Source of the DNA: Lysobacter sp. yr284
GTDB taxonomy: Bacteria; Pseudomonadota; Gammaproteobacteria; Xanthomonadales; Xanthomonadaceae
Assembly (NCBI RefSeq): GCF_900107375.1
Contig: NZ_FNPT01000030.1
Span: 5,001 to 45,037, forward strand
Direction of reading: 5' to 3'
DNA length: 40,037 nucleotides
The translations under genes and the position numbers were made by a program. Position 1 is the first letter of the stretch; the number at the start of each line of letters is the position of its first letter. Positions 8,860 to 15,958 of this stretch are shown piece by piece. Under the pieces are notes generated by a model, which was not told the origin of the DNA, made no database searches, and was given only the letters and a program-made list of their open reading frames with translations.

Positions 8860-9933
8860 TCAGGGACGCAGTTCGAACAACGCCGGCAGCGGCGGCCGCT
8901 CCGACGGCACTTTGCGGAAACGGCCGAATCCGGCCTCGCTGGCCATGGCGCGGGCGCGCTTCTCGCCCATGAACGCGCCCAGCCCGGCGCCGTCGTGCGA
9001 CAGCGAGCAGGTCATGCAGTACAGCGTGCTCTGCGGATACATGACCCGGCCGAACAGGTTCATGTTCTCGTGCAGTTCCTCCGACAGGTTGAGCTCGACC
9101 ATCAGGTAGGTGCCGTCGTCGGCGGTCGCCGCGCGCAGGTCGCGCAGCATCTGCTGCGGATCGGTGGCGTCGTGGATGACCACGAAGGTGGTCACGAAGT
9201 CGAACGTCTGCCCGACCAGGACGTCGGAATCGGCGACCTCGAAGCTGACCCGGTCGGCGACGCCGGCCGCCGCGGCGTTGGCGCGCGCGCGTTCGATCGA
9301 CGGCAGGTGGAAATCGCAGCCGACCACGCGCGCCTGCGGATAGGCCTGGGCCATGGTGATCGCGGCCAGGCCGCTGCCGCAGCCGAAGTCCATGACCGTG
9401 CCGCCGGCGCGCAGCTTGTCCTCGACCCCGTCGAGCGAAGGAATCCAGCGCTGCACCAGGTGGTGCTTGTACCAGGGCATGGTCATGCGCTCCATGCCTT
9501 GCCAGGTCTCCAGCGGATAGGCCTCCTCCGGCGCGCCGCCGCCGTTGCGGAAGGCCTCGGCGATGCGCGGGGCCATGCTCACGAACGGCACGCTCAACTG
9601 CAGGATGCCGCCGGCGAAGTAGGGCGAGTCCTCGTCGGCCAGCACCGGCGCGAACTCGTCGGGCAGGCGGTAGCGCCGCGCCTGCGGGTCGTAGTCGAGG
9701 TAGCCGCCGGTGACCATGCTGCCGAGCCATTCGCGCAGGTAGCGCGCGTTGAGGCCGGTGTCGCGCGCCAGTTCCTCCTGGGTCACCGCGCCCAGGCGCC
9801 ACAGCGCCTTGAACAGGCCGACCTTGTCGCCGATGTAGAGCATCGCCCCGCGCAGGGTGTTGCCGTAGTCCTCCATGATCCGGGCCGAGAATTTCTCGAC
9901 CTTGTCGGTATCGATCGCGTTGCCGTCAGCCAT
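8860..9933 (-). CDS. flcA: SAM-dependent methyltransferase, putative fluopsin C biosynthesis (FlcA-like)
   Basis: This 357-residue protein is predicted to N-methylate the thiohydroxamate or its precursor. Residues about 25-95 form a winged-helix-like dimerisation region (TQEELARDTGLNARYLREWL) and residues about 165-350 the class I Rossmann fold. SAM motif I is DFGCGSG at 182-188 and the acidic ribose-binding residue is Asp207 in VVGCDFH. ATG at 9933, preceded by gagggg. It is the last gene of the operon, 52 bases after the second lyase. Family and fold are clear. The fluopsin role is inferred from the complete set of neighbours: two lyases, two iron enzymes and one methyltransferase match the published P. 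aeruginosa pathway. The letter is assigned by gene order and should be checked by alignment. Confidence 0.8.
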   Translation of the reverse strand: MADGNAIDTDKVEKFSARIMEDYGNTLRGAMLYIGDKVGLFKALWRLGAVTQEELARDTGLNARYLREWLGSMVTGGYLDYDPQARRYRLPDEFAPVLADEDSPYFAGGILQLSVPFVSMAPRIAEAFRNGGGAPEEAYPLETWQGMERMTMPWYKHHLVQRWIPSLDGVEDKLRAGGTVMDFGCGSGLAAITMAQAYPQARVVGCDFHLPSIERARANAAAAGVADRVSFEVADSDVLVGQTFDFVTTFVVIHDATDPQQMLRDLRAATADDGTYLMVELNLSEELHENMNLFGRVMYPQSTLYCMTCSLSHDGAGLGAFMGEKRARAMASEAGFGRFRKVPSERPPLPALFELRP

Positions 9934-9985
9934 TGCGGTAGTCCCCTCGGATGAGTGTTTGCTTGAATGAAAGGCGCCGGCCCGC

Positions 9986-11449
9986 TCAGCGGCGGTGGCC
10001 GACTTCGCCGAGCACGCCGTCGACGATGGTCGCGGCCATGCCCAGGTGCGCCTGCGGTTCGAACAGCCGCGCCAGCCGTCCCTCGCCGACCGCGGCGAGC
10101 ACGCGCGGATCGGCCTCGACCGCTTCGCGGATCGGCACACGGTCGCGCTGGCAGGCTTGGGTCAGCTCGAAGATGATTTCGTAGGCGCTGCTCTTGCCGA
10201 GCTTGCCGGCCATCTCGAACACGAACGCTTCCATGCAGATCGAGTCGCTGAACGCGCGCGCGTTGCGTTCCATCGCCGCGGCGTTGACGGTGAGTCCGGC
10301 GACGGTGTCGGTGAGCAGGCTGGTCGCCATCAGCGCGTAGTGCGAGACGTCGGCGACCGCGCACCATTCCAGGCGGGTGCCGCGGTAGTCGCGCTCGTGT
10401 TCCAGGATCATCGCGTCCAGCGCCAGCGCGACCTGGGCCTTGGCCAGCCGCGCCATCACCACGACCTGCTCGCAGCCTTCGGGATTGCGCTTGTGCGGCA
10501 TGGTGCTGCTGCCGATCTGGTGCTCGCTCCAGCCGACCTCGACCTCGCCGATCTCCCAGCGGTTGAGGGTGCGGATCTCGTCGGCCGCGCGCGCCAGGGT
10601 CGCGGTCATCATCGCCAGGGTGCTGACGAATTCGGCGACGCGGTCGCGCGCCACGTGCCAGCCGGCCAGCGGCACGTCCAGGCCGAGCCGGCGCGCGAAC
10701 GCTTCCAGCAGCGGCATCGCCTTGGGCCCGAACGCGGCCATGGTGCCGACGCCGCCGAACAGCTGCACCACCAGCACGCGCTGGCGCGCCTGGCGCAGGC
10801 GGTCGCGGTGGCGCAGCAGTTCGTCGATCCAGCCGGCGACCTTGAGCCCGAAGGTGGTCGGCAGCGCCGGGATCGAATGGGTGCGCGCGACCATCACCGA
10901 ATGGCGATGGCGGTCGGCCAGCGTCGCCAATCGCGCGAGCAGGCCGTCGAGCGCTTCGTCGAGGGTGTCGAGCACGTCGCGCAGTTCCAGCGATTGCGCG
11001 GTGTCCTGGATGTCCTGGGTGGTGGCGCCGTAGTGGATGAACTCGCGCGCCTCGGGGCTGCAGGCGTCCTGCAGCGCGTGCAGCAACGGCATCAGCGAGT
11101 GGCCGGTGCGGGTCACGCCTTCGGCGATGCGCTCCAGGTCCATCGCCGGCAGCACCGCGCGGCGCTGGATTTCCAGCGCCGCCGGGCGCGGGATCATGCC
11201 GACGTCGGCCTGGGCCATCGCCAGCGCGGCTTCCACGTCGAGCCAGCGCTGCAGCCGGCAGCGGCTGCAGAAGATCGCGCGGGTGGCGGCGTGGGCGTAG
11301 CCGCCGCCGTGGGTCTTGGAGTCGAGCACGTGGCTGTGTTCGTGCCGGCAATCGGCCAGCGCGTGGGTGTGGCCGTCGGCGCAATGGGCCGGGGCGGTGA
11401 ACGCCGCCGGCGGCGGCAGCGGGATTTGGACCAGGGTCTGGGGTTCCAT
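9986..11449 (-). CDS. flcB: Fumarase/aspartase-superfamily lyase, putative FlcB, with His/Cys-rich N-terminus
   Basis: This 487-residue protein belongs to the adenylosuccinate lyase-like branch. The mobile catalytic loop GSSTMPHKRNP is at residues 313-323, ATTQD at 142-146 and ARTH ending at His191, so the active site looks intact. In the fluopsin pathway two such lyases act on cysteine and later steps; in this superfamily the chemistry is addition or elimination of fumarate. Compared with its neighbouring paralogue it has an extra N-terminal stretch of about 38 residues. Together with the start of the domain, residues 22-64 contain eight His and four Cys (H22, C23, H27, H29, C34, H36, H38, H40, H47, H53, C61, C64), suggesting metal binding. 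The ATG at 11449 has an excellent ribosome binding site (ggaagg). Which lyase performs which step cannot be read from the sequence. Confidence 0.8.
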   Translation of the reverse strand: MEPQTLVQIPLPPPAAFTAPAHCADGHTHALADCRHEHSHVLDSKTHGGGYAHAATRAIFCSRCRLQRWLDVEAALAMAQADVGMIPRPAALEIQRRAVLPAMDLERIAEGVTRTGHSLMPLLHALQDACSPEAREFIHYGATTQDIQDTAQSLELRDVLDTLDEALDGLLARLATLADRHRHSVMVARTHSIPALPTTFGLKVAGWIDELLRHRDRLRQARQRVLVVQLFGGVGTMAAFGPKAMPLLEAFARRLGLDVPLAGWHVARDRVAEFVSTLAMMTATLARAADEIRTLNRWEIGEVEVGWSEHQIGSSTMPHKRNPEGCEQVVVMARLAKAQVALALDAMILEHERDYRGTRLEWCAVADVSHYALMATSLLTDTVAGLTVNAAAMERNARAFSDSICMEAFVFEMAGKLGKSSAYEIIFELTQACQRDRVPIREAVEADPRVLAAVGEGRLARLFEPQAHLGMAATIVDGVLGEVGHRR

Positions 11450-11506
11450 CGCATTCCTTCCATTCTCGGTGGCGGGGTGGAAACGCTTGCGATTGCGATG
11501 TTGCGT

Positions 11507-12901
11507 TCAGTGCCCGGGTGCGCTTGCGCCCGGTGTGTCGGGTACGCCCGGGCCGGCGGCGTCGCCGGCGACCAGGTCGACCATGTCGGCCGCCAGTCCT
11601 ACGTAGGTGACCGGATCGAGCAGCGCCTCCAGCGCCTGCGGGGCGAATTCGCCGCGGATGCGCGCATCGCCCAGCAGCGCGTCGCGGAACGGCAGTTCGC
11701 CGTGGCGCGCGTGCATGGAGGCTTCGTGGACCAGTTCGTGCGCGGTCTGCTTGCCGACCCGCTCGCCCAGCGCCAGCATCACCCGCTCCGACAGCAGCCG
11801 GCCGCCGAGCAGGTCGAGGTTGCTGCGCATGCGCTCGACCCGGATCTCCAGGCCCGCGGCCAGCACCTCGTCCATGCGCGCCAGCAGCGCGCCGGCGTAG
11901 ACGAAGATTTCCGGCAGCGCCGCCCATTCGATCCGCCACGCGGTGCCGTCGCGTTCGTGCTGGTGGAAGGCGGCGTCGGTGAGCGCCAGCATCTGCGCGC
12001 GGATCATCCGCGACAGCGCGCTGATCAGGTCGATGGTCGAGGGGTTCTGCTTGTGCGGCATGGTGCTGCTGCCGATCTTGCCGGCCGGCGCGCCCTCGCG
12101 GACTTCGTCGATCTCGGTGCGCTGCAGGTGGTAGACCTCGTTGGCGATGCGCCCGATCGTGACCGCGACCTGCACCAGCAAGCCGGCCACGTCGAGGATG
12201 CGGTCGCGCGCGCAGTGCCAGCTGGTGCGCGGCGCGCCCAGGCCGAGCCGGGCCAGGGTGCGCCGTTGCAGTTCGAAGCCGTGCGCGCCGAACGCGGCCA
12301 TGGTGCCCACCGCGCCGGTGAGGTTGCCGACCATGACCCGCTCGTAGGCTTCGTCGAAGCGCTGCAGGTGGCGGTCGATCTCGTCGATCCACACCGCCAC
12401 CTTGTAGCCGAACGTGGTCGGCAGCGCCTGCTGGCCGTGGGTGCGCGCGACCATCGGCGTGTTGCGGTGCGCGCGCGCCAACACCAGCAGGTGCGCGCGG
12501 ATCGAGCCCAGCCGCGCCAGCGTGAGCGCCCAGGCCTGGCGGATCTGCAGCACCAGGCCGGTGTCGAGGATGTCCTGGGTGGTCACGCCGTAGTGCACGT
12601 ATTCGCCCCAGCCGTCGCTGCAGCGCTCGGCCAGGGCGCGGATGGTCGGCACCAGGATGTGGCCGGTGCGGCGGTTTTCCTGGCCCAGCGCGACCAGGTC
12701 GAATTGCTCGGCGCAGGCGGCGCGGTCGATTTCCTGCGCCGCCTGCGCCGGGATCAGCCCCATATCGGCCTGGGTCAGCGCCAGCGCGCGCTCGACTTCC
12801 AGCCACTGGCGCAGCTGGTTGCGGTCGCAGAACACCGCGGCGAACTCCGGCGCGGAGTAGACGCCGCCGTAGAGGCGCGATTCGGTCACGTGGCTGGGCA
12901 T
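11507..12901 (-). CDS. flcC: Fumarase/aspartase-superfamily lyase, putative FlcC
   Basis: This 464-residue protein is a paralogue of the next gene. Superfamily landmarks are TTQD at 107-110, ARTH ending at His155, GTMAAFG near 199-205 and the catalytic loop GSSTMPHKQNP at 277-287. It is expected to be a homotetramer that adds amines or thiols to fumarate or eliminates fumarate from such adducts. It differs from true PurB and ArgH in pairing with a second lyase and two HDO proteins, so a purine or arginine role is unlikely. The ATG at 12901 (MPSHVTESRLYGG) is used; the frame upstream overlaps the HDO gene and is not coding in this frame. Gaps of 53 and 57 bases to its neighbours support a single transcript. 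Confidence 0.8.
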   Translation of the reverse strand: MPSHVTESRLYGGVYSAPEFAAVFCDRNQLRQWLEVERALALTQADMGLIPAQAAQEIDRAACAEQFDLVALGQENRRTGHILVPTIRALAERCSDGWGEYVHYGVTTQDILDTGLVLQIRQAWALTLARLGSIRAHLLVLARAHRNTPMVARTHGQQALPTTFGYKVAVWIDEIDRHLQRFDEAYERVMVGNLTGAVGTMAAFGAHGFELQRRTLARLGLGAPRTSWHCARDRILDVAGLLVQVAVTIGRIANEVYHLQRTEIDEVREGAPAGKIGSSTMPHKQNPSTIDLISALSRMIRAQMLALTDAAFHQHERDGTAWRIEWAALPEIFVYAGALLARMDEVLAAGLEIRVERMRSNLDLLGGRLLSERVMLALGERVGKQTAHELVHEASMHARHGELPFRDALLGDARIRGEFAPQALEALLDPVTYVGLAADMVDLVAGDAAGPGVPDTPGASAPGH

Positions 12902-12954
12902 GGCGGCGGGTTCGGTCGGCTGGCTCGTGAAGGGCTGGCGGGGCGCGGCGGGGC

Positions 12955-13974
12955 TTACTGCACGCTGCGCATCTCGTCCCAGACCGCGTCGTAGTACGCC
13001 CGCTCGACCCGGAAGTGCTGCGCCAGCGAGGTCAGGAACGACTTCTGGAAACCGTGGTCGGGCAGGCGCTTGGCGATCAGTGACCACTCGCGCTTGGCCC
13101 GCGGCGGCACCAGGCTGACGTGGATGCGGTAGTACTCGGCCTCGTCCTCGCTCAGCCCGGCCTTGAGCAGCGCCTTGTAGAGCTTCTCGTGGTTGCCCGG
13201 CACGACGATCTCGGTGATGTAGAACACCGCCAGGCCCCAACCCACGTCCGGGTTGCGGAAGCTGCGCACGCGGTTGTTGAGGTAGGCGATCTCCTCCGGC
13301 AGGGTGCTGACCGCCTGGAAGTCGGCGTCCAGCCCGATCGCGCGCAGCAGCTTGGCGAGCAGGCGCGGGTGCGAGCCCTGCTCGCTCTCTTCGCCCAGCT
13401 CGCCGTACAGATAGCGGCCCAGCGCGGCGGCTTCGTCGACGTCGACCAGGTTGACCAGCAGGTCGGCGGCGTCGCGGTACAGGCGGAAGGTGCGGAACCA
13501 CTGCCGGCGCAGGAATACCTGCAGCTGCGCGCGGCTGGCGCGGCCTTCGAAGATGTATTCCGACATCGGGTGCTTCTCGCGCGAGCGCGCGGCGACTTCC
13601 TGCTCGATGCGGGCGAGGAACTCGGCTTCCGACAGCGCGTGCGGCACGTCGGCGGCGGGGATGTGGCGCTCCTCGATGCGGTAGCCCTCGTTGGACAGCC
13701 AGCGCCGGGTCAGCGCGGTGGCGGTGTCGTCGCTGAGCGAGAGGATGTACAGCAGCTTCTGGTATTCGCGGTGGGCGTCAACGTCGCCCTTGAGCGCGGT
13801 TTCGGCCAGTTCCGACAAGGTCTTGCCGGCGGTCTGCAGGTGCGCGTACGGCGCTTCGGGATGCAGGGCGCGGGCGAGGATGCGGGCGCGGTTGCTCTGC
13901 AGCGAGTCGAGCTGGCGCAGCGAGTGATTGGGGGCGGCGCTGGCGGGCATGGTGGCGTTCATGACTGCGTTCAT
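12955..13974 (-). CDS. flcD: HDO-family (heme-oxygenase-like) iron enzyme, putative FlcD
   Basis: This 339-residue protein is all-helical and resembles the heme-oxygenase-like diiron oxidases (SznF, UndA, BesC and relatives). Visible family metal ligands are Glu192 and His202 (E-x9-H in YGELGEESEQGSHP), Glu255 in YITEIVV and His285 in YYRIHVSLVPPR. The usual third-helix H-x3-D-x2-H motif is altered to H285-x3-V289-x2-R292, so its metal site must differ from the standard one. In fluopsin biosynthesis one such enzyme does oxidative decarboxylation and N-hydroxylation and the other excises a carbon; which one this is cannot be decided here. ATG at 13974, nine bases after the upstream stop; a start at an internal ATG a few codons later is possible. 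The D/E lettering follows gene order. Confidence 0.77.
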   Translation of the reverse strand: MNAVMNATMPASAAPNHSLRQLDSLQSNRARILARALHPEAPYAHLQTAGKTLSELAETALKGDVDAHREYQKLLYILSLSDDTATALTRRWLSNEGYRIEERHIPAADVPHALSEAEFLARIEQEVAARSREKHPMSEYIFEGRASRAQLQVFLRRQWFRTFRLYRDAADLLVNLVDVDEAAALGRYLYGELGEESEQGSHPRLLAKLLRAIGLDADFQAVSTLPEEIAYLNNRVRSFRNPDVGWGLAVFYITEIVVPGNHEKLYKALLKAGLSEDEAEYYRIHVSLVPPRAKREWSLIAKRLPDHGFQKSFLTSLAQHFRVERAYYDAVWDEMRSVQ

Positions 13975-13983
13975 GGCATGGGC

Positions 13984-15003
13984 TCAGTGGAAGGAGGGGC
14001 CTTGCATCTGGCGCCACAGCAGATCGAAGTAGGCGCGGTTGATGTCGAAGTGGCGGGCCAGCGATTGCATGAAGGTGCGCTGGAAGGTTTCGCTTTGCGC
14101 GTACTTGGCGATCAGCTCCCACATCTCCTCGGTGTCGATCTCGTCCTGGGTGCCGTGCAGGCGGTGGAATTCGCTGGGGCCGTCGGGCACGCCCATGCGC
14201 TGCAGCAGCTCGTAGATGCGCAGGTGGTTGACGCAGCTGACCGATTCGACCGCGTACAGCAGCGACAGGCCCCAGGCCACGTCGGTGTGGCGCACGCAGC
14301 GGATGCGGTTGTTGAGGTAGGCCTTTTCCAGCGGGTGCAGCGCGGCGAAGTCGATCTCCAGCGGGATCTCGAAGTGCTCCATCAGCTTCGACAGCAGCGC
14401 CGGATGGGCGCGCTCGGGCGTTTCCGCGCCGGCTTCGCCGTACAGGTTGCGGTAGAACACCGAGGCGTCGCGGATGTCCTCGAAGCGGAACGCCAGTTCG
14501 GCCAGCAGGCTGTAGAAGTTGTACGAGCGGATCCAGTGGTGTTCGAGGAAGAAGCGCACGTCCTGCGCGGACGGTTCCCCCTGGAACAGGTATTGCGACA
14601 TCGGGTGGCGCACGCGGGTGCGCGCTTCGATTTCCGCATCGATGGCGGCGCGGAACTGTTCCACCGGCACCGGCTGGAACTGCGGCAGCGCCGGGGCGAA
14701 TTCGTCTTCGACCCGATAGACCTGGCTGGCGAGCCAGCGCCGGGTCGGTTCGCTGGCCGGATCGGCCGGCAGGTGCAGGTCGAGCAGGATCGACTGGTAC
14801 TGCGCGTAGGCTTGCGCGTCGCCGCCCAGGCCGCGGCGGGTCAGCGCCAGCAGTTCCTCGGTTGCGAGCGCGAGTTGCGCGTAGGACGCGTCCGGGCGCA
14901 GGGCCTGGACGAGCGAGTCGGGCGCCGCGGCCAGGGCCGCGGGCGGCGGCTGCGGCGTAGCGGTGGCGTGGGTGTCGTCGAGGATCATGCGGGTGGCGCT
15001 CAT
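13984..15003 (-). CDS. flcE: HDO-family (heme-oxygenase-like) iron enzyme, putative FlcE
   Basis: This 339-residue protein is a paralogue of equal length to the next gene. Predicted iron ligands are Glu190 and His200 (E-x9-H in YGEAGAETPERAHP), Glu253 in YAVESVS, and His283 and Asp287 in RLHGTQDEID. The last residue of the family H-x3-D-x2-H motif is Asp290 rather than His. It is a likely cytosolic, O2-dependent oxidase of an amino-acid adduct. The ATG at 15003 has a good ribosome binding site (agagggg). It is the first enzyme gene of the operon, 243 bases after the MerR-YHS gene. That gap shows no convincing promoter, so read-through from the regulator promoter is plausible. Confidence 0.78.
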   Translation of the reverse strand: MSATRMILDDTHATATPQPPPAALAAAPDSLVQALRPDASYAQLALATEELLALTRRGLGGDAQAYAQYQSILLDLHLPADPASEPTRRWLASQVYRVEDEFAPALPQFQPVPVEQFRAAIDAEIEARTRVRHPMSQYLFQGEPSAQDVRFFLEHHWIRSYNFYSLLAELAFRFEDIRDASVFYRNLYGEAGAETPERAHPALLSKLMEHFEIPLEIDFAALHPLEKAYLNNRIRCVRHTDVAWGLSLLYAVESVSCVNHLRIYELLQRMGVPDGPSEFHRLHGTQDEIDTEEMWELIAKYAQSETFQRTFMQSLARHFDINRAYFDLLWRQMQGPSFH

Positions 15004-15246
15004 GTGTTCCCCTCTGGGCTGGCGGATGGATGGTTCGGCTGGCGGATGCAGGACTGCGCGGCCCGATCGCGGCGCGCAGGCGGATGCGCCGCGACCGATG
15101 CGGTCGCGACCTGGGTAAGTCTTTGCAGCGTCTGAACGGTGAAGCCCCGTACGGCGCGCCGGCCGCCGCGATGCGATGCGATGCGGACCCGGTGCGCTAC
15201 GGCCGCCCGGCGTGGGCGAGCGGCCGTCCCCTTGGTGCCTGGAGCC

Positions 15247-15888
15247 TCAGCGCGCGGCCGGCGCGCCGGATTCCAGGAACTCCTGGCGGCATTGCGCCGA
15301 GCAGAAGTAGTAGCCCACGTCCGCCTGCACGGCGTGGTGCGGCGTGGTTTCGATGTTCACCTGCATGCCGCAGACCGGATCGACCGCGCTGGCGGCGGCC
15401 TGCGTCTCGCAGGTGCGCGCGGCCGAGCAACAGCTGCGTTGCGGGGCTGCGGCCTCGTCGGACGGTTTCTCCAATGGATGCGGACCGCTCATGTTCTTTT
15501 CTCCCTCCAGGGCGTTGACTATCGGACAACATTCGACCGCACCGCGGCCGGGACACGAATCGAGCAGCATTTGCAGCAGGTCGCGGATGTGCACGAGCTC
15601 GGCGAGCTTGGCTTCGACGTCGGCTAGCTTCTGCGTGGTCGCCGCCTTGACCCCGGCCATGTCGCTGCCGCGGCTGCCGAGCAGGCCGAGCAGTTCGCGG
15701 ATCTCGGCGAGGGTGAAGCCCAGGCTCTTGGCGCGGCGGACGAACTGCAGCCGCGCCACGTCCTTGGTTTCGAAGCGCCGATAGCCCGACATCTGCCGCA
15801 TCGGCAGCGGCAGCAGGCCCTGCCGTTCGTAGTAGCGGACGGTGTCGATGCCGACCCCGACGCGTTGCGCGAACTCCCCGATCTTCAA
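15247..15888 (-). CDS. Copper-type MerR regulator fused to a YHS domain
   Basis: This 213-residue protein starts with a MerR winged helix (KIGEFAQRVGVGIDTVRYYE) followed by the long dimerisation helix. The metal loop has Cys112 and Cys120 (CPGRGAVECC), the same numbering and spacing as the Cu(I) ligands of E. coli CueR, plus Cys121. Position 77, Ser in CueR and Cys in divalent-metal sensors, falls on Met77 in an approximate alignment. A Cys-rich linker (C153, C154, C160) leads to a YHS domain at about 169-208, with DPVCGMQV and YYFCSAQCRQEF (C173, C196, C200); YHS domains occur in copper and heavy-metal ATPases. The TTG start at 15888 is chosen because GGAGGT lies five bases upstream and the HTH begins there; an ATG at 15945 would overlap the operator. 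It lies upstream of the five enzyme genes on the same strand, so it probably controls them. Confidence 0.86.
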   Translation of the reverse strand: MKIGEFAQRVGVGIDTVRYYERQGLLPLPMRQMSGYRRFETKDVARLQFVRRAKSLGFTLAEIRELLGLLGSRGSDMAGVKAATTQKLADVEAKLAELVHIRDLLQMLLDSCPGRGAVECCPIVNALEGEKNMSGPHPLEKPSDEAAAPQRSCCSAARTCETQAAASAVDPVCGMQVNIETTPHHAVQADVGYYFCSAQCRQEFLESGAPAAR

Positions 15889-15926
15889 TCCCCACCTCCA
15901 TGTCGTAAGGCGCCCGGTACGTCGCC

Positions 15927-15958
15927 AGTGTTCGGTCTGGACCATAGTCCAGGGTCAA
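15927..15958 (-). promoter_or_regulatory. MerR-type promoter/operator of the regulator-fluopsin operon
   Basis: On the minus strand a -35 box TTGACC (15958-15953) is followed by a dyad, ctggac-tatg-gtccag (15952-15937), and a candidate -10 box AACACT (15932-15927). The spacer is 20 bp. MerR regulators act on promoters with a 19-20 bp spacer containing a dyad, so the arrangement fits autoregulation. The -10 box is weak, as usual for activated promoters. The start codon lies 39 bases downstream of the -10 box. Confidence 0.7.

Follow-up and report, generated by a model that had tools for sequence, protein, structure and literature searches.

The window analysed here, a stretch of 40,037 nucleotides (nt) from Lysobacter sp. 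yr284 (contig NZ_FNPT01000030.1, positions 5,001 to 45,037), contains at positions 8860-15958 a probable operon for the copper-binding antibiotic fluopsin C, headed by a regulator of the MerR family. An earlier account of this DNA, the sequence-only reading, had described six consecutive minus-strand genes for a MerR-YHS regulator, two HDO-family proteins of equal length, two lyases and a methyltransferase. A check of the open reading frames (ORFs) and Pfam matches of the window agreed with it in coordinates, order and span, and both HDO proteins have 339 amino acids (aa). All features of the locus lie on the minus strand. The merR-yhs gene (15247..15888, 213 aa from a TTG start) was recognised by Pfam and NCBIfam, alignments and a tree. 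It is followed by the orthologues of flcE (HDO-1, 13984..15003, 339 aa), flcD (HDO-2, 12955..13974, 339 aa), flcC (lyase-1, 11507 to about 12901, 464 aa when counted from the first ATG in its conserved portion), flcB (lyase-2, 9986..11449, 487 aa) and flcA (8860..9933, 357 aa), the last encoding an S-adenosylmethionine N-methyltransferase. Pfam cut-offs were passed by HOASN and Haem_oxygenas_2 in both HDOs, by Lyase_1 and ADSL_C in both lyases, by methyltransferase domains and an Rv2258c-like winged helix in FlcA, and by three MerR models in the regulator.

Each of the five enzymes has its orthologue, in the same order, among FlcE-D-C-B-A of Pseudomonas aeruginosa. Compared with strain PA7, identity was 76% over 325 aa for FlcE, 72% over 456 aa for FlcC, 77% over 458 aa for FlcB and 80% over 357 aa for FlcA. 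FlcD had 72-73% identity to P. aeruginosa FlcD (324 aa aligned to PA7) and scored 516 bits against the FlcD structures 8w1q and 3bjd. The five PA7 proteins and the window ORFs were mutual best matches in the same order and on the same strand (reciprocity refers to the window and the fetched loci, not to genome against genome), which bears out the proposed alignment with PA3515-PA3519. Second-best window matches to the PA7 Flc proteins were at 37-42%, with none for FlcA, and the two proteins of the genome that match FlcD at 1e-30 are the two HDOs. Because identity of 72-80% extends over most or all of the length and the order is the same in PA7, the resemblance of the loci is not due to chance. 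All five genes kept this collinear order in each of the 21 loci examined, two of which are repeats of contigs that had been counted before.

Excerpts of PMC11363339 distinguish FlcD from other HDOs by its single iron and the motif E-H-E-H-V-R, strongly predicted there for the FlcD subgroup alone among 150 HDO groups. The window protein has the full motif (E192, H202, E255, H285, V289, R292). The substrate contacts R121, Q147, R150, Y220, R224 and H251 correspond to R132, Q158, R161, Y231, R235 and H262 of the window, with residues taken from the same excerpts and numbering matched by spacing. Motif and substrate residues were invariant in all six aligned proteins. In FlcE, the stretches LYGEAG..HP, YAVES..NH and FHRLHGTQDEID, putative metal-ligand stretches, are common to the window and PA7.

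The lyase signature reads GSSTMPHKQNP in FlcC and GSSTMPHKRNP in FlcB. FlcB is PA14_18850 in the operon PA14_18810-18860 according to excerpts of PMC11419262, and we decided which lyase is FlcB by this place in the gene order. The N-terminus of FlcB is extended, and the extension carries C-x-HEHSH in all 20 loci and, after it, FCS[HR]CRLQ in 17 of them; FlcC has no C-x-HEHSH in any of the 20. This extension is possibly a metal-binding tag on the first enzyme of the pathway. In NCBIfam, both lyases exceed the cut-off of a model named adenylosuccinate lyase, and next comes the 3-sulfopropionylcysteine synthase XcbD model (448.6 and 474.3 bits, below its cut-off of 600). FlcB and FlcC may be mislabelled by automatic annotation.

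Upstream of merR-yhs, at 15927..15958, lies a MerR-type promoter/operator, identified by conservation in eight loci and a pattern search of the genome. It consists of TTGACC, a 20-bp spacer with the dyad CTGGAC-TATG-GTCCAG, and AACACT. The consensus TTGACY-CTGGACYATGGTCCAG-ACCG-AACACT is identical in all eight Lysobacter flc loci except for two C/T positions, and it is kept where the flanking sequences of the two clades diverge. With up to 3 mismatches allowed, this operator has a single site in the genome of the strain, and the reversed pattern used as a control has none. A wider regulon of the flc MerR beyond the locus was rejected on this single site.

The metal site of CueR comprises S77 and C-X7-C. 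All eight flc MerRs have, judged by spacing, Met in place of this Ser, together with C-X8-C; the window protein reads C-X7-C-C and so has both cysteine spacings. The flc regulator scored 110.6 bits with the NCBIfam CueR model, below the cut-off of 147.4, which the genome's own CueR, with Ser and C-X7-C, passes at 162.9 bits. The gene for this CueR lies directly after a P1B ATPase gene (locus L039, G000:C29), with a CueR-type box nearby at 2 mismatches. In P. aeruginosa, CueR controls PA3515-PA3519, as stated in excerpts of PMC12833586 and PMC7922089. A CueR-type box (a pattern of 19 specified positions) lies upstream of flcE in 12 of 12 Pseudomonas loci, with 0-4 mismatches, versus none of the eight Lysobacter loci, where the best site before flcE has 7 or more mismatches. 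This supports the claim of a dedicated regulator in place of the CueR arrangement: Lysobacter sp. yr284 has its own CueR, yet its flc genes are without the box. CueR control of flc in Lysobacter was rejected for this reason.

The YHS part of merR-yhs (15247..15492) looks like a shortened N-terminus of a copper-type P1B ATPase: over 37 aa it is 59% identical to the N-terminal YHS region of such an ATPase on a Xanthomonas campestris plasmid. In the three genomes of clade 2, YHS is a separate ORF of 85-86 aa that overlaps MerR by ATGA, a layout as in ATPase operons. In clade 1, to which the window belongs, the stop is lost and MerR and YHS form one protein; the ATG of YHS, after a GGAG-like stretch, is still present. 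All six cysteines of the YHS part are invariant in the eight loci. Omega was 0.18-0.49 for YHS versus 0.00-0.20 for MerR (9 pairs), so the YHS part is more variable yet constrained, that is, under purifying selection. We found no paper on a MerR protein with a YHS domain in the open-licence literature, which is not proof of absence elsewhere.

Regulators of the flc type are not restricted to flc loci. Matches at 1e-30 or better occurred in 88 of 198 genomes of the family, and we examined 30 loci from the best-matching of these genomes, comprising 4 flc and 26 non-flc loci. An operator of the same pattern and the Asp-Met plus C-X8-C site were present in 26 of 26 non-flc loci, and the ATGA overlap in 21. 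Within a 1.5-kb flank, YHS was found in 24, HMBD in 24, both in 23, CPCALG in 20 and all three in 19; one locus (L058) had none of the three ATPase motifs. The four flc loci scanned had neither HMBD nor CPCALG within the 1.5-kb flank. Six ATPases were scanned whole, one from the X. campestris plasmid NZ_CP066927 and five from genus-mates, and all passed the copper-ATPase cut-off of 397 (599.7 bits for the plasmid, 569.5-576.2 for the genus-mates). The plasmid also carries a copper oxidase, CopB and a four-helix copper protein (copA/copB-type resistance genes). Its record is labelled linear and has MerR at one end and the ATPase at the other; the two are adjacent there if the plasmid is circular. 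In the MerR tree, the eight flc MerRs stand on one side of a branch and the 26 ATPase-type ones on the other (support 93/97). Judged from these comparisons, the flc regulator is not a CueR and belongs with the MerR proteins of merR/YHS-ATPase operons. The metal sensed would be copper, by analogy with these relatives in front of copper-type ATPases.

Within the genus, this MerR was detected at 1e-25 in 13 of 20 genomes, eight with flc, five with the ATPase and none with both; the other seven have neither. In the five flc-less genomes the ATPase, at 76-78%, is on the same strand at a distance of 99-126 nt. A YHS-type ATPase was found in none of the eight flc genomes, in which the best ATPase match was at 46-47% and began at residue 107-110. 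This exclusive pairing gave a Fisher p of 0.0008 within the 13 genomes, a statistic that ignores kinship. Two flc-negative genomes of the genus have an in-frame TGA in the ATPase match (G116:C44:15552-17513 and G592:C2:458568-460529).

FlcD was found at E 1e-100 or better in 8 of 20 genomes of the genus, at 1e-30 in 4 of 198 of the family (all of this genus) and at 1e-60 in 1 of 398 phylum-wide, which is the genome of the strain itself. Neither the plasmids nor the viruses searched had a match to FlcD. A pattern scan of 84,980 species genomes, whose result is a lower bound, gave at least 14 flc loci, 12 of Pseudomonas (including P. aeruginosa PA7) and two of Lysobacter. In an unrooted tree of the joined Flc proteins, the 8 Lysobacter and 12 Pseudomonas rows were split at 100/100. 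In clade 1 (five Lysobacter genomes), flc lies between a GGDEF-EAL gene and a zapA gene pair. These flanking genes adjoin in the other 15 of the 20 genomes, 12 without flc and three with flc elsewhere, as seen by tblastn of the named flanking genes against the 20 genus genomes. In clade 2 it is at another site, with merR and YHS still in front. The flc module thus occupies two different genome sites. No joint paper on fluopsin and Lysobacter was found in the open-licence literature, which does not prove absence elsewhere; the 2021 Science article of Patteson reportedly notes conservation of the pathway among further bacteria, and Lysobacter may be one of those it lists.

In the window, 243 nt separate merR-yhs from flcE. 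A GC-rich inverted-repeat block in this gap (15086..15110) is a conserved stretch in an intergenic region otherwise poorly alignable across the eight Lysobacter loci; it has one match in the window, and 2 of 100 shuffles have one. Possibly it is a promoter element or an RNA hairpin. Just past the merR-yhs stop lies a further inverted repeat (15199-15227, ACGGCCGC...GCGGCCGT), both arms of which are changed matchingly in locus L019; it may lower the read-through from merR-yhs into flc. The RNA of the gap folds no more stably than shuffles do (z 0.54), and an RNA structure there was rejected on this ordinary fold.

We consider it likely that the locus is a Lysobacter fluopsin C operon controlled by a MerR of the merR/copper-ATPase kind instead of CueR. 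The steps of the pathway were established in P. aeruginosa, as given in excerpts of PMC11363339, and are carried over here by orthology. FlcB would couple cysteine with fumarate; FlcE and FlcD, the latter a mononuclear-iron HDO excising a methine, would oxidatively remove two carbons; FlcC would cut the C-S bond and FlcA would methylate the nitrogen. Two of the resulting N-methylthiohydroxamates would bind copper, and the product is predicted to be fluopsin C. CueR-like activation acts by DNA distortion at a long spacer, and the same is expected for the flc MerR. The regulator would recognise the conserved -35/-10 dyad. A soft metal, Cu(I) being the most probable one, would activate it through Met and C-X8-C, and in the metal-bound form it would untwist the 20-bp spacer, as is usual for the family, switching on merR-yhs-flcEDCBA. 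It would drive flc by co-transcription across the gap. The YHS piece would provide a further metal-binding site close to the sensor and may hand over metal to it or buffer metal. In this scheme, flc would have taken the place of the exporter as the output of the sensor, the ATPase being gone except for its metal-binding YHS N-terminus. We speculate, with moderate confidence, that a copper-export operon turned into a copper-antibiotic operon that kept the YHS end of the exporter; its later fusion to MerR through loss of a stop would have given the regulator a second metal-binding domain, with which it tunes the production of fluopsin.

Several observations weigh against this interpretation. In NCBIfam the flc regulator ranks nearest to the mercury MerR, then ZntR and then CueR, all below cut-off, and the C-X8-C spacing is typical of divalent sensors, not of CueR. 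The support of 93/97 in the MerR tree is just below the mark of the program, and a long-branch Novosphingobium row falls inside the flc group. The Pfam YHS model stayed just below its cut-off of 30.3 (27.0 bits with the 232-aa ORF, 29.7 with its C-terminal piece alone). The six ATPases also passed the cadmium-family cut-off of 313.5, at 389-405 bits and so below their copper scores. The eight flc genomes represent a small number of lineages, and two or three events may lie behind the exclusive pairing. Finally, with a conserved block and an inverted repeat in the gap, flc may be driven from a promoter of its own or be subject to attenuation. From this last point comes the reading that fluopsin C is made but merR-yhs is a leftover, with the flc promoter in the gap, perhaps at 15086-15110, and under another regulator. 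It is in keeping with the two repeats there, but does not account for the conserved merR operator and YHS part, nor for the attachment of merR-yhs to flc at two genome sites in 8 of 8 genomes, and the gap shows no CueR-type box and an ordinary fold; we regard it as unlikely.

Sensing of another soft metal (Ag, Au, Hg, Zn or Cd), with fluopsin made in response, we regard as less probable again. Met with C-X8-C differs from the CueR set (Ser, C-X7-C) as well as from the Cys sets of MerR and ZntR, and the NCBIfam ranking and the cadmium scores point the same way; but the copper-type score was higher in 6 of 6 ATPases, the X. campestris regulator stands amid copper resistance genes, and the expected output is itself a copper-binding product. 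The remaining doubts concern the enzymes. At 72-80% identity, and with a product predicted from sequence, the Lysobacter proteins might make a related thiohydroxamate or another cysteine-derived metallophore, but all five are present, the metal and substrate residues of FlcD are kept and the motifs of FlcE and the lyases are unchanged, which makes such a product very improbable. That the genes belong to an unrelated HDO/lyase pathway and resemble flc by family membership only is scarcely credible: HDOs and aspartase/fumarase lyases are widespread and the adenylosuccinate lyase model fits both lyases, but the orthologues are collinear at 72-80% with paralogues at 37-42%, and in excerpts of PMC11363339 the FlcD motif is strongly predicted for one HDO group of 150. 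This pathway was rejected on collinear orthology and the FlcD motif.

Around the locus, the zapA pair comprises ZapA and an adjoining ORF without a family match. Below it are five ORFs for an ABC transporter, a Y-family polymerase, RpiA, an EVE protein and a 5-FTHF cyclo-ligase, and above merR are three for the GGDEF-EAL protein, an M24 peptidase and a LysR regulator. Neither copper families nor RND families were found among the 10 neighbouring ORFs scanned, and a pattern search of the window in six frames gave no CopZ-like motif.

These results add Lysobacter to the carriers of the fluopsin C pathway; the genus includes biocontrol strains used alongside copper fungicides, for example L. capsici AZ78 (excerpts of PMC4742617). 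The pathway is known already; the regulatory swap with a retained exporter stub appears to be a new variation. It offers a natural example of a sensor type that is placed ahead of a copper pump in some genomes and of a copper antibiotic in others. If the speculated conversion of an export operon took place, exporter and fluopsin operon would be interchangeable answers to one signal. The alternation of pump and antibiotic makes the purpose of fluopsin C (copper detoxification, weapon or both) testable: if fluopsin detoxifies, loss of flc should cost copper tolerance in genomes without the exporter of this circuit. The fused MerR-YHS and its unfused sister lend themselves to a comparison that asks what YHS contributes to a MerR sensor.

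Compared with P. aeruginosa flcA-E (PA3515-PA3519), the Lysobacter locus has the same five enzymes, order and catalytic motifs. However, P. aeruginosa has the CueR-type box at flcE, and Lysobacter lacks it and has MerR-YHS at the head instead. In PA7, flc adjoins a small CopZ-like ORF with its own CueR-type box and RND-pump-like ORFs (read by eye, in agreement with excerpts of the literature); the motif of the CopZ-like ORF reads NMSCGGC, and a copZ pattern requiring GM matched none of the 12 Pseudomonas loci. CueR and the flc regulator are both of the MerR family with two cysteines in the metal-binding loop, but the latter has Met for Ser, C-X8-C for C-X7-C and another operator. The merR/YHS copper P1B-ATPase operons of Lysobacteraceae share with the flc loci the MerR subfamily, the operator pattern and the Met plus C-X8-C site, and their ATGA overlap is also kept in flc clade 2. 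They carry the full ATPase, whereas the flc loci have only its YHS N-terminus and, instead of the rest, the five flc genes, and in clade 1, unlike the ATPase operons, MerR and YHS are fused.

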